This document shows positions 30,925-34,134 of a stretch of 43,538 nucleotides of DNA, one piece after another. The stretch lies in contig CANJOB010000005.1 of assembly GCA_947475655.1 (NCBI GenBank), forward strand, positions 1 to 43,538, written 5' to 3'. This DNA is from Caulobacterales bacterium (GTDB lineage: Bacteria; Pseudomonadota; Alphaproteobacteria; Caulobacterales; Caulobacteraceae). Both the position numbers and the translations under genes were made by a program. The notes under the pieces are model-generated. The model saw only the letters and a program-made list of their open reading frames with translations. It was not told the DNA's origin and did no database searches. Positions within the stretch are counted from its first letter, which is position 1; each line of letters opens with the position of its first letter.

Positions 30925-31707
30925 CTAGATGCCAGCGTACCAGTTGTAGCCGTAGTCTTCCCAGAAACCGCCCTTGCCCTTGCCGAACCGCGCCAGGCTG
31001 TCGGTGACCTCGATCCGGCTGACGAACTTGGCGTGCTTGTAGCCGAGCTGGCGCTCGATGCGCATCCGCACCGGCGCGCCGTGTGCGACTTCCAGAGGCT
31101 TGCCGTTCATCTCATGCGCCAGGATGGTCTGGGGGTGGAAGGCGTCCACCAGGTCGACGCTCTCGTAGTAGCGCTTTGTCAGATCGCCGCGCTGCTCGGG
31201 GTCGTCGAAGCAGTGGAACACCACGAAGCGGGCGCTGGGCGCCAGGCCCGCCGCCTTCAAGATCACACTGAGAGGAACGCCCTTCCATTGGCCGATGGCG
31301 CTCCAGCCCTCGACGCAGTCGTGGCGCGTGATCTGGGTCCGTTGCGGCAGGGCCTTGAGTTCGTCCAGCGACAGGCTCATGGGCCGCGCCACCATGCCGT
31401 CCAGGGTCAGGCGATAGTCGGCGAAACCCTTCTCCAGCAGGGTCAGGTATTGCGGGTTGTCGTTGGCGTCGCTGCTGCCGTTGGCGCGAAAGACCGGCGA
31501 CATCTGCTCGGGGCGGAACTCGCGCGCCAGTTGGCCACCCGAGAGCAGGAAGCGCTGGGTCCTCATGTTGAGGCCTTCGGCGTCGCCGAGGAAGTCGATG
31601 AACTTAGGCGAGGCGGAGAGCCGGTCGCAGCCGGCCAGCATCAGGGTGGAGAAGGTGGCGGCGCCGCCGATCAGCAGCGACCGGCGCGAGGGCGGCTGCG
31701 TGCTCAT
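30925..31707 (-). CDS. Tat-exported molybdopterin oxidoreductase, YedY1/MsrP-like
   Basis: A 260-residue sulfite-oxidase-fold enzyme with a Tat signal (PSRRSLLIGGAATFSTLMLAGC), which also ends in a lipobox-like LAGC. The molybdenum-ligand cysteine is in ITRHDCVEGWSAIGQW, followed by FHCFDD and GAPVRMRIERQLGYKHAKFV. In Azospira the homologous YedY1 reduces methionine sulfoxide in a Met-rich peptide. Here it overlaps the membrane cytochrome b by 4 bp (ATGA) and is third in an operon headed by a Met-rich exported peptide and driven by a SigF promoter. Methionine sulfoxide repair is inferred from that context. Confidence 0.9.
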   Translation of the reverse strand: MSTQPPSRRSLLIGGAATFSTLMLAGCDRLSASPKFIDFLGDAEGLNMRTQRFLLSGGQLAREFRPEQMSPVFRANGSSDANDNPQYLTLLEKGFADYRLTLDGMVARPMSLSLDELKALPQRTQITRHDCVEGWSAIGQWKGVPLSVILKAAGLAPSARFVVFHCFDDPEQRGDLTKRYYESVDLVDAFHPQTILAHEMNGKPLEVAHGAPVRMRIERQLGYKHAKFVSRIEVTDSLARFGKGKGGFWEDYGYNWYAGI

Positions 31708-32444
31708 GCCTCGTCCTCCGGCTTGATCTCGTAGCGGCCGGTGATCATCGACCGGATTTCGTTGATCGGCCCGGCCAGGACCACCATCGCCAAGTGCACG
31801 ATCACGAACAGCACGATCAGCATGAAGAAGATGAAGTGCAGGCTGCGCCCGCCCTGGCGGCCGCCGAACAGGTCAAGCAGCCACGGCGCGGCCGCGTTCA
31901 TGGCGGGCGACATGGTCAGGCCGGTCAGCAGCATCAGCGGCAGCAGGCAGATGACGCCCAGATAGGCCAGCTTCTGCAGGATGTTGTAGCGCTGGGCCGC
32001 CTCGCCCTTGGGAAATTTTAGCCGCAGGTGGTCGCGGATGTCCTGGAGGATATTGCGGGGCCTCAGTTCGTCGGCCGTCGGCGCGAGGTCGCGCTTGATG
32101 TGGCCGTTGATCGCCCCGCCGACCAGGTAGGCCAGGCCGTTGATGACGAACACCCAGGCGAAGAAGAAGTGCCAGTAGCGGCCGGTGCTGAGATCTTGAT
32201 AGCTCGGAATGGTCAGCCAGGCGGGGATATTGGCGAACTCGATCCAGGGCGTGTCGAAATTGGCGCCGAACTGGCCCCAGTACAGCGCCGGGTGCGCGCG
32301 CAGAATCTGCAACCCGCTCATGGCCAGGAACAGCAGGGCGACGACATTGGTCCAGTGGGTGACCCGCGTCAGCAGCCTGTGGCGATAGAACAGCTCGCGC
32401 TTGCGCTTGGGCGCGGCGGTGGACGGCAATGCGGCGTCGCTCAT
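31704..32444 (-). CDS. Membrane cytochrome b, YedZ1-like
   Basis: A 246-residue di-haem cytochrome b561/formate dehydrogenase gamma-like protein with about four or five membrane helices. Candidate haem histidines lie in RHRLLTRVTHWTN, GRYWHFFFAWVFVIN, SLHFIFFMLIVLFVIVHLAMV. It should take electrons from the quinol pool and hand them to the exported molybdopterin enzyme encoded just downstream with a 4-bp overlap. The Shine-Dalgarno GGAGG sits five bases before the ATG. The unusually wide loop (residues ~60-85) contains no motif I recognise. Confidence 0.9.
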   Translation of the reverse strand: MSDAALPSTAAPKRKRELFYRHRLLTRVTHWTNVVALLFLAMSGLQILRAHPALYWGQFGANFDTPWIEFANIPAWLTIPSYQDLSTGRYWHFFFAWVFVINGLAYLVGGAINGHIKRDLAPTADELRPRNILQDIRDHLRLKFPKGEAAQRYNILQKLAYLGVICLLPLMLLTGLTMSPAMNAAAPWLLDLFGGRQGGRSLHFIFFMLIVLFVIVHLAMVVLAGPINEIRSMITGRYEIKPEDEA

Positions 32445-32520
32445 CTGGCCTCCTGTCCGCTCCGATCAAGCGCCGCCCCGGCCACAGAGGCAAGGGCGGC
32501 GCGAGATTTAGGTCTTGGGC

Positions 32521-32778
32521 TTACTTCTTGGCCGGCATGCCCGGGGTCATCGCGCCCTTGGGGGCCATGGCGCCGGTCGACTTCATCATATCGGGGTGCA
32601 TCTTCATCATCTCCATGCACTTGGCGTCCTTCTTCATCATGTCCATGGTCATGGCCTTGCAGGCGGTCATCTTGTCCATGTCCATCTTCGACATCGGGGC
32701 GGTGGCCGCGAAAGTCGCGCTGCCCGCGGCGAGGCTGGACAGCAGGGCGCAGGCGGCGAGGGTGAGGCGAACGTTCAT
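32521..32778 (-). CDS. Methionine-rich exported peptide, MrpX-like
   Basis: An 85-residue precursor with a signal peptide (MNVRLTLAACALLSSLAAGSATFA). The mature ~60 residues contain 17 methionines, several Lys and Asp, two Cys, one His and no aromatic residues (for example MSKMDMDKMTACKAMTMDMM). It resembles MXKDX-type Met-rich peptides and MrpX of Azospira, which is oxidised by hypochlorite as a sacrificial sink and repaired by YedY1. Copper binding is an alternative, since Met and Cys clusters also bind Cu(I). It is first in the operon, 50 bases downstream of a SigF promoter. Confidence 0.85.
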   Translation of the reverse strand: MNVRLTLAACALLSSLAAGSATFAATAPMSKMDMDKMTACKAMTMDMMKKDAKCMEMMKMHPDMMKSTGAMAPKGAMTPGMPAKK

Positions 32779-32828
32779 GGGAGTTTCCTTCGGCTGTCAC
32801 CCGCTGAAACGCGGGCGCTGTTAGGAAG

Positions 32829-32854
32829 TTCGGCCCGGCGCCGTGATCGGTTAC
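32829..32854 (-). promoter_or_regulatory. SigF promoter of the mrpX-yedZ1-yedY1-like operon
   Basis: On the minus strand GTAACC (32854-32849), exactly 16 bases, then CGAA (32832-32829). This equals the SigF consensus GTAACC-N16-CGAA reported for Caulobacter. It would give a leader of about 45 bases before the Met-rich peptide gene. Confidence 0.88.
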
Positions 32855-32906
32855 AGCGCAATGGAAATTCTCTGTCGCTTTTGACGTGCGCCGCGGCGCG
32901 GTGCGT

Positions 32907-32932
32907 GTAACCGATGAAGGGTGCGCGGCGAA
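32907..32932 (+). promoter_or_regulatory. SigF promoter of sigF-nrsF
   Basis: GTAACC (32907-32912), 16 bases, CGAA (32929-32932): the same exact consensus facing the sigma gene, indicating autoregulation. The -10 element is only 10 bases before the ATG at 32943, so the transcript would be nearly leaderless. Confidence 0.88.
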
Positions 32933-32942
32933 TAGATGAGGG

Positions 32943-33506
32943 ATGGCCCCGCTGGGCGACCTGGAACCTCGTTTGAAAGACCTGATGCTCGCCGGTCTCG
33001 CCGGCGACAACGCCGCGCATACGAAGCTGCTGCGCGAACTGGCCGCGGCGCTGCGCCGCTATTATGCCCGGCGCCTGGGCGGGGGTGCGGCCGACGTGGA
33101 GGATCTGGTGCAGGATACCTTGATCGCCGTCCACACCCGGCGCGGCACCTACCAGAGCGACATGCCCTTCACCGCCTGGGCCTACGCTATCGCGCACTAT
33201 AAGCTGGTCGACCTCTACCGCCGCCAGGGTCGGCGCCCGACTGTGCCGCTGGAAAGCGCCGGCGCGCTGTTCGCGCCGGATGACCATGAGGCCTGGACCG
33301 CAGCCGGCGACCTCGACCATGTTCTGGCCACGCTTGAGCCCAAGGCCGCCGCCGTGATCCGCCACACCCACATCGAAGGCCTGTCGACGAAGGAGACCGC
33401 CGCCCTGACCGGCCAATCGGAATCGGCGGTGAAGGTAGGGGTGCACCGGGGCCTGAAGAAGCTGATCGCCAGGTTCGGGGGAAGGAGCGACCATGCCGAC
33501 CGATAA
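32943..33506 (+). CDS. sigF: ECF sigma factor SigF
   Basis: A 187-residue extracytoplasmic-function sigma factor. Region 2 (residues ~25-90: LLRELAAALRRYYARRL, DVEDLVQDTLIAVHTRR, PFTAWAYAIAHYKLVDLYRR) and region 4 (~125-180: THIEGLSTKETAALTGQSESAVKVGVHRGLKKL in parts) are complete. The adjoining DUF1109 anti-sigma gene and flanking GTAACC/CGAA promoters identify it as SigF-type, a responder to oxidants and heavy metals. An ATG at 32985 is an alternative start. It overlaps nrsF by 14 bp. Confidence 0.92.
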   Translation: MAPLGDLEPRLKDLMLAGLAGDNAAHTKLLRELAAALRRYYARRLGGGAADVEDLVQDTLIAVHTRRGTYQSDMPFTAWAYAIAHYKLVDLYRRQGRRPTVPLESAGALFAPDDHEAWTAAGDLDHVLATLEPKAAAVIRHTHIEGLSTKETAALTGQSESAVKVGVHRGLKKLIARFGGRSDHADR

Positions 33507-34134
33507 CCTGATCGAACGCCTGGGCTCGGAGGTCCGCGCGGTGCCGCGCGGCCTGGCGGCGCGCCGCCTGATCCTGGGCGCCGGGGCAGGCGTGGTCGTG
33601 GCCGCGGTTCTCATGCCGCTGTGGATCGGCGTGCGGCCGGATCTCGCCCAAGCGGTGGGCACGGCGGCCTTCTGGATCAAGCTCGCCTACACCCTCGGTA
33701 TCGCAGCGGCGACGTTCTGGCTGTTGGAGCGCCTGGCCCGGCCGGGCGCGCGGACATTGAACCAAGTGATTGTCGGCCTGGCGCCGCCCGTCGCCGTGCT
33801 GGTGCTGGCCGCCGCGGAACTGGCTGGCGCGGAGGCGGCGGAGCGCCCGCATCTGATCATGGGCGCGTCGTCCCACCTCTGCCCTTGGCGCATCGTGGCC
33901 CTGGCCTTGCCGGTGTTGATCGGGGCCCTCTGGGCGTTGCGCGGCCTGGCGCCGACACGGCCGACCCTGACCGGCGCCGTGGCGGGGCTGTGCGCCGGCG
34001 GCGCGGGCGCCTTCGTCTATGCCTTCCATTGTGACGAGCGGGCCATGCCGTTCCTGGCCCTCTGGTACAGCGGCGGCATCGTCATTAGCGGCGTGATCGG
34101 CGCGGTCGCCGGGCGGCGCTTACTGCGGTGGTAA
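33493..34134 (+). CDS. nrsF: Anti-sigma factor NrsF (DUF1109)
   Basis: A 213-residue inner-membrane protein with about six helices that holds SigF inactive. The two cysteines that matter in Caulobacter NrsF (C131, C181) are present as C130 (SSHLCPWR) and C180 (YAFHCDERAMPF), so thiol or metal sensing is probably intact; C167 is an extra one within a helix. The gene overlaps sigF by 14 bp, keeping sigma and anti-sigma levels matched. Because sigF and nrsF share the SigF promoter, a negative-feedback loop is expected. Confidence 0.92.
   Translation: MPTDNLIERLGSEVRAVPRGLAARRLILGAGAGVVVAAVLMPLWIGVRPDLAQAVGTAAFWIKLAYTLGIAAATFWLLERLARPGARTLNQVIVGLAPPVAVLVLAAAELAGAEAAERPHLIMGASSHLCPWRIVALALPVLIGALWALRGLAPTRPTLTGAVAGLCAGGAGAFVYAFHCDERAMPFLALWYSGGIVISGVIGAVAGRRLLRW

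Follow-up and report, generated by a model that had tools for sequence, protein, structure and literature searches.

A Probable SigF/NrsF-Type Envelope-Oxidation Module with a Methionine-Rich Peptide in a Caulobacterales Genome

The window, a 43,538-nucleotide stretch of contig CANJOB010000005.1 (Caulobacterales assembly GCA_947475655.1), quite probably encodes an ECF16-type (SigF/NrsF) response to envelope oxidation that comprises a peptide repair module. The genes, their order, the promoter sites, the family matches, and the recurrence of the same order in named relatives were all observed directly. The module spans positions 30925 to 34134 and consists of the following features.

30925..31707, minus strand: MsrP/YedY1-like molybdopterin enzyme (Pfam Oxidored_molyb PF00174, E 9.9e-38, 129.8 bits)
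31704..32444, minus strand: membrane cytochrome b561, YedZ1-like, predicted electron-delivering partner (Pfam Ni_hydr_CYTB PF01292, E 3.5e-27, 95.8 bits)
32521..32778, minus strand: Met-rich exported peptide, MrpX-like, 85 aa (residue counts, signal-peptide-like start)
32829..32854, minus strand (read from 32854 to 32829): peptide-operon promoter, ECF16/SigF-type, GTAACC-N16-CGAA (exact pattern match)
32907..32932, plus strand: sigF-nrsF promoter, ECF16/SigF-type, GTAACC-N16-CGAA (exact pattern match)
32943..33506, plus strand: sigF, ECF sigma factor, 187 aa (Pfam sigma-70 regions 2 and 4)
33493..34134, plus strand: nrsF, membrane anti-sigma factor, 213 aa (Pfam NrsF PF06532, E 9.7e-67)

The sigma/anti-sigma pair and the mirrored promoters

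A sequence-only reading of this DNA had placed a complete module at 32521 to 34134. All its genes are present, but that range covers the peptide, sigF, and nrsF only, the cytochrome and molybdoenzyme genes lying outside it. The Pfam matches and open reading frame coordinates bore out its claim that peptide, cytochrome b, and molybdopterin enzyme genes diverge from sigF-nrsF, and a pattern search with coordinates reproduced the exact GTAACC-N16-CGAA promoter on both sides, the -35 elements standing 52 bases apart. The two sites point away from each other and share 19 of their 26 bases. sigF and nrsF overlap by 14 bases, and the cytochrome and molybdoenzyme genes by 4.

A promoter search of the window allowing one mismatch gave 3 matches against a mean of 1.24 in shuffled sequence, with at least 3 in 15 of 100 shuffles, so that the count alone is unremarkable; the only exact matches in the window are the mirrored pair. 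A chance origin of the mirrored promoters was set aside because of where they lie and because distant loci share the arrangement, their number having no part in this. Nor are mirrored promoters special to this locus. The gap between -35 elements was 52 to 55 bases in six of eight divergent peptide loci (four of the six being close kin), the pattern finding no promoter pair in the other two (L185 and L192). Twelve further sigF loci of the order have gaps of 34 to 85 bases, and Brucella has one of 38 bases, as computed from the coordinates in Table 1 of PMC8315932, against 52 in the window; a conserved gap of 52 to 55 bases was not retained as a signature.

NrsF matched PF06532 (NrsF, DUF1109) over residues 11 to 213 with 225.2 bits (cut-off, 26.8) and the NCBIfam model NF042994 (anti-sigma-F factor NrsF) with 155.9 bits, below its cut-off of 300. 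As expected of an ECF16 pair, an NrsF-family gene follows the sigma gene and GTAACC-N16-CGAA precedes it; a single-threshold hydropathy scan gave about four membrane stretches, versus the six helices expected of ECF16 anti-sigma factors. NrsF has three cysteines (Cys130, Cys167, and Cys180), and by position, without alignment, Cys130 and Cys180 lie near the published pairs 131/181 of Caulobacter and 129/179 of Bradyrhizobium.

In phylogenetic trees the window SigF grouped with that encoded on a plasmid of Microvirga ossetica (97/84), outside a cluster of eight SigF proteins of the genus, and the window NrsF likewise grouped with the Microvirga NrsF (94/83, under the starred level). The Microvirga proteins (L185, BB934_RS42140-42110) are thus the closest to those of the window in both trees; the identities are 55% for SigF, 47% for NrsF, and 61% for the MsrP-like enzyme. 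The trees did not demonstrate a single origin of the peptide-type SigF, giving three changes on the SigF tree and two on the NrsF tree. The grouping with Microvirga, together with the patchy spread described below, suggests that the module may have moved as a block.

Published systems and spread among relatives

The window shares its gene set, an exported Met-rich peptide, a cytochrome, and a YedY-like enzyme adjoining sigF-nrsF, with sigF-nrsF/mrpX-yedY1Z1 of Azospira suillum, where, in the passages cited, deletion of nrsF brings resistance to reactive chlorine and SigF activates mrpX and yedY1 (PMC5748585; also PMC4623255). The likeness, already drawn in the sequence-only reading, is one of gene content: a Met-rich peptide and a reductase of the YedYZ type, both under a sigma/anti-sigma pair. 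It is right for the gene set and gains strength from the order on five plasmids and from a Brucella operon, but it is limited by the family models, the peptide being unmatched by TIGR02953 and the enzyme and NrsF scoring under the NCBIfam cut-offs. Compared by description, bcrS-abcS/bcrXQP of Brucella melitensis also has the gene set of the window; the cited passages of PMC8315932 report both operons as HOCl induced from mirrored GTAAC...CGAA promoters and call the peptide an MXKDX repeat protein, whereas the NCBIfam model for MXKDX peptides does not match the one in the window.

Two further systems share the regulator. Caulobacter crescentus SigF, which answers to chromate and cadmium, has the same sigma/anti-sigma pair, GTAACC-N16-CGAA promoter, and NrsF cysteine pair as the window, but its neighboring operon is DUF2282-DUF692-DUF2063-DoxX instead of a Met-rich peptide and reductase; a YedY gene elsewhere in that genome is partly SigF dependent (PMC3511200, in the passages cited). 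EcfF-OsrA of Bradyrhizobium, a group 16 ECF pair with a promoter similar to that of the window, controls three methionine sulfoxide reductases and is induced by H2O2; the passages of PMC3420878 consulted do not mention a Met-rich peptide. The components, the mirrored promoters, and the link to HOCl are thus all present in published systems, and the window is a somewhat diverged new example. What is added here is a peptide outside the MXKDX model, promoter sites elsewhere in the genome before msrA and an AhpC/TSA gene (against two sites for a control pattern), and an enzyme with the look of a Tat lipoprotein.

The same divergent order, nrsF-sigF facing peptide-cytochrome-molybdoenzyme, was found on plasmids of Rhizobium etli CIAT 652, R. 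acidisoli, Rhizobium sp. T1473, Agrobacterium larrymoorei, and Microvirga ossetica, the last with msrA and msrB after the enzyme gene; in the window genome, by contrast, an msrA gene preceded by an exact promoter site is on another contig. In Kaistia and Cypionkella the peptide accompanies the enzyme pair, with no sigF or nrsF match within the stretch. Across the class, a cytochrome match at E 1e-20 was present in 21 of 385 genomes (the window's own included), and each of 20 stretches taken from 18 of the other 20 genomes held a cytochrome-MsrP pair. The window cytochrome is 32 to 57% identical to cytochromes adjoining MsrP-like genes elsewhere.

These pairs bear on the alternative that cytochrome and MsrP serve general periplasmic protein repair, with the peptide a minor reporter or decoy. 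A Met-rich reading frame was taken as a gene in just one of the 20 class stretches (L165; the other filtered frames look spurious), and in some pairs (L156, L160, and L161) a SigF-like site stands shortly before the cytochrome gene, both of which favor it. We nevertheless consider it unlikely, given that the peptide is the first gene opposite sigF-nrsF in the divergent loci, that is, on the five plasmids and in L194 of the same genus.

Within the genus, the enzyme was matched at E 1e-40 in 7 of 75 genomes, again counting the window's own. G616 combines the same order with a peptide free of Cys, and in G629 the module parts are rearranged and the peptide has two Cys; G637 and G621 hold the cytochrome-enzyme pair with no sigF match within the stretch, the contig of G625 ends inside the cytochrome gene, and G135 gave a weak enzyme match (42%). 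NrsF itself was found in 69 of 200 genomes of the order, the window's own included. The 38 other nrsF loci analyzed in the order (one per genome, for 38 of 68 genomes) showed no match to the peptide, the cytochrome, or MsrP within the stretch taken; in the genus, 10 other nrsF loci examined were without the module and two further genomes had it.

For 13 of these 38 order loci we listed the genes behind the divergent promoter and scanned five of the neighbors with Pfam, which gave four DUF2282 proteins and one DUF1223 protein. DUF2282 proteins are bufferins. Seven loci (L045, L046, L048 to L050, L060, and L064) have sigF-nrsF, divergent promoters, and, where the window has its Met-rich peptide, one of the four-Cys DUF2282 type, assigned by Pfam in L046, L049, L060, and L064 and by eye in L045, L048, and L050. 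Among eight genomes of the genus, DUF2282 was present in G625, G637, and G006 and absent from G000, G616, G629, G621, and G015; the three genomes with the peptide module gave no DUF2282 match, G000 being 83% and G616 78% complete.

Some further arrangements were observed. A DUF1223 protein adjoins the cytochrome-MsrP pair on plasmids of Sphingomonas and Rhizobium rhizogenes (L166 and L168), thioredoxin and CcdA also being encoded there on the Sphingomonas plasmid, and a DUF1223 protein lies opposite sigF in one family member (L057). In G006 (C155:53587-54144), an NrsF match in two gapped pieces, on a contig with a DUF2282 match, may be a broken or misread nrsF.

The peptide and its predicted reductase

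The mature peptide has 17 Met, two Cys, and one His in 59 to 61 residues at three trial cleavage points, the cleavage point being our reading of the signal-peptide-like start; these counts agree with the roughly 60 mature residues and the composition first read from the sequence. At E up to 1 it was matched by no model of Pfam or NCBIfam, TIGR02953 (pentapeptide MXKDX repeat protein; cut-off, 41 bits) included. The latter model scored 6 of 10 other Met-rich peptides above the cut-off and 2 below it and left 2 unmatched. Its closest relative is the same-genus peptide of L183, an equally high score being reached by 1 of 2,000 shuffles of the mature part, as compared with 9 of 2,000 against a profile of nine two-Cys peptides, 84 of 2,000 against the R. 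etli peptide, and 247 of 2,000 against that of Microvirga. By these scores the window peptide is related to its genus neighbor, while its resemblance to the peptide of R. etli or of Microvirga, taken singly, is hardly above an effect of composition, and the tie to the rhizobial peptides rests mainly on gene order. A direct peptide search of 61 genomes (the window's own included) gave nine matches outside the window (E 9e-4 to 9e-3, 27 to 32% identical), which were counted as spurious because they are weak and each runs through two TAG codons.

The two cysteines of the window peptide, Cys40 and Cys54, have 13 residues between them (x13). By our reading, 13 Met-rich peptides stand beside cytochromes about 43% or more identical to that of the window (those of the window, L085, L086, L167, L168, L185, L188 to L192, L194, and L197; short Met-rich frames that overlapped genes or had no signal-like start were removed by eye after filtering). 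Eleven of them have two cysteines in the mature part, a count inflated by near-kin rhizobia, with the spacing x19 in seven (among them Microvirga, in contrast to x13 in the window), x12 in L197, x57 in L086, and x45 in L168. A Cys pair was rejected as a family-defining trait, since L188 and L194 have no mature-part Cys, L194 being of the same genus and gene order as the window. Three peptides beside more distant enzymes (L165/L202, L199, and L203) have no mature-part Cys as read. In L199 and L203, whose cytochrome-MsrP pair is of a second type, distant at about 33% identity, the Cys-free MXKDX peptide lies just behind a GTAACC...CGAA site. The peptide beside the same enzyme pair on a Methylobacterium radiotolerans plasmid (L188:3262-3537) is rich in Met and Arg/Lys, unlike the MXKDX type.

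The composition of the window peptide, two Cys and a His alongside 17 Met, would also suit a periplasmic trap for soft metals (copper, cadmium, and chromium), with the MsrP-like pair keeping Met reduced for binding and the whole module responding to metals. The chromate and cadmium response of Caulobacter SigF (PMC3511200, as cited above) agrees with such a role, as do the DUF2282 gene beside the same switch in four order relatives, the statement that bufferins chelate copper in the abstract of a paper that also mentions DUF2282 (PMC12452194), and a Paraburkholderia fungorum plasmid (L187) on which a cytochrome-MsrP pair adjoins a copper-efflux operon (cueR, P-type ATPase). We judge a metal trap rather improbable all the same: the nearest published systems are tied to HOCl in the passages cited (PMC8315932 and PMC5748585), Cys number and spacing vary down to the Cys-free peptide of L194 in the same gene order, and msrA and msrB follow in Microvirga.

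The cytochrome scored above the cut-off only for Ni_hydr_CYTB in Pfam and for no NCBIfam model; the MsrQ (YedZ, E. coli) model was not among the matches listed for window proteins in Pfam and NCBIfam. The best NCBIfam match of the molybdoenzyme was NF003767 (E. coli-type MsrP), with 94.5 bits, below the cut-off of 207. Sub-cut-off profile matches to SorA (65.2 bits), SoxC, and SorT raise the question of a sulfite dehydrogenase-like enzyme, in which case the module would respond to sulfite or a different sulfur oxyanion and the peptide would be a bystander or a protectant against sulfite stress. All 12 solved relatives listed are named for sulfite, including the best one, 1xdq (E 1.1e-16), tabulated as Bacterial Sulfite Oxidase. 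That structure we take to be E. coli YedY/MsrP, however, and Cys131 of the window enzyme (the Cys of HDCVEGWS) aligns to its Cys that is presumably the Mo ligand. With MsrP scoring above SorA and the enzyme gene being followed by msrA and msrB in Microvirga, a sulfite enzyme is very improbable, and we retain the MsrP-like assignment. The N terminus of the enzyme has a twin-arginine stretch and a lipobox, LAGC (Cys27), a succession seen in 35 of the 44 MsrP-like N termini compared, that of the window enzyme among them; the pattern used was a plain expression instead of a trained predictor, and the sample holds many rhizobial kin. The MsrP-like enzyme is thus probably exported by the Tat route and lipid anchored.

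Candidate SigF targets and the proposed response

The exact GTAACC-N16-CGAA pattern occurs four times in the 2.88-Mb assembly (83% complete), against two for a reversed-pattern control. Two of the four sites are the window pair, and the others precede msrA and an exported AhpC/TSA gene. A looser search (GTAACN, spacer 15 to 17, CGWA) was discarded, and since it gave no signal (16 sites versus 34 for the reversed control), exact sites alone were used. The msrA site starts 132 bases before the gene (L084:3591-4358, contig C197), between a tRNA-Ser gene and the start codon, and the other begins about 106 bases upstream of the AhpC/TSA gene (L083:3007-3700, contig C17). Either extra target could be due to chance, since the control gives two sites here and three genomes of the genus have no excess (1, 3, and 2 exact sites versus 3, 4, and 3 in the control).

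Among the 30 best msrA loci of the genus, the motif lies within about 300 bases upstream in two, the window genome's own included. The other is L118 of G015, at 131 bases instead of 132 and with a different spacer; G015 (70% complete) has no further exact site, against three for the control, and gave no NrsF or MsrP match. At E 1e-20 the 74 other genomes of the genus hold no relative of the AhpC/TSA gene, leaving its site without a counterpart for comparison. These sites are suggestive of a regulon that may include msrA and the exported AhpC/TSA protein.

We propose that NrsF, as a membrane anti-sigma factor, would hold SigF until its Cys pair, or a bound metal, is oxidized, whereupon freed SigF would fire both mirrored promoters. 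One would raise sigF-nrsF, and the other would yield the peptide, the cytochrome b561, and the MsrP-like enzyme, with msrA and the exported AhpC/TSA gene as possible further members. Strong oxidants in the periplasm, such as HOCl, would be taken up by the peptide Met residues as methionine sulfoxide, and the MsrP-like enzyme would reduce the peptide back, drawing on quinone-pool electrons delivered by the cytochrome. The electron path, like the lipid anchor and the two extra targets, we infer. We also infer HOCl as signal and substrate; it is not derivable from sequence, because relatives of SigF answer to chromate and cadmium (PMC3511200), H2O2 (PMC3420878), and HOCl (PMC8315932), according to the passages cited.

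Tentatively, SigF/NrsF may be a common chassis with exchangeable sacrificial exported peptides, four-Cys DUF2282 peptides in several relatives within the order and, in the window, a Met-rich one carrying a Cys pair, this two-Cys form being a mixed thiol/thioether redox buffer with a two-tier repair regulon. If this were true, repair would be shared among a lipid-anchored MsrP-like enzyme for Met, an exported AhpC/TSA-type protein for thiols, and MsrA inside the cell. The module extends defense by a Met-rich peptide into a genus in which 10 other nrsF loci examined lack it and two further genomes have it. It offers testable SigF targets in msrA and the exported AhpC/TSA gene and testable structural predictions in the peptide Cys pair and the enzyme lipid anchor, all of which would help to tell whether reactive chlorine, metals, or both are what the module buffers.
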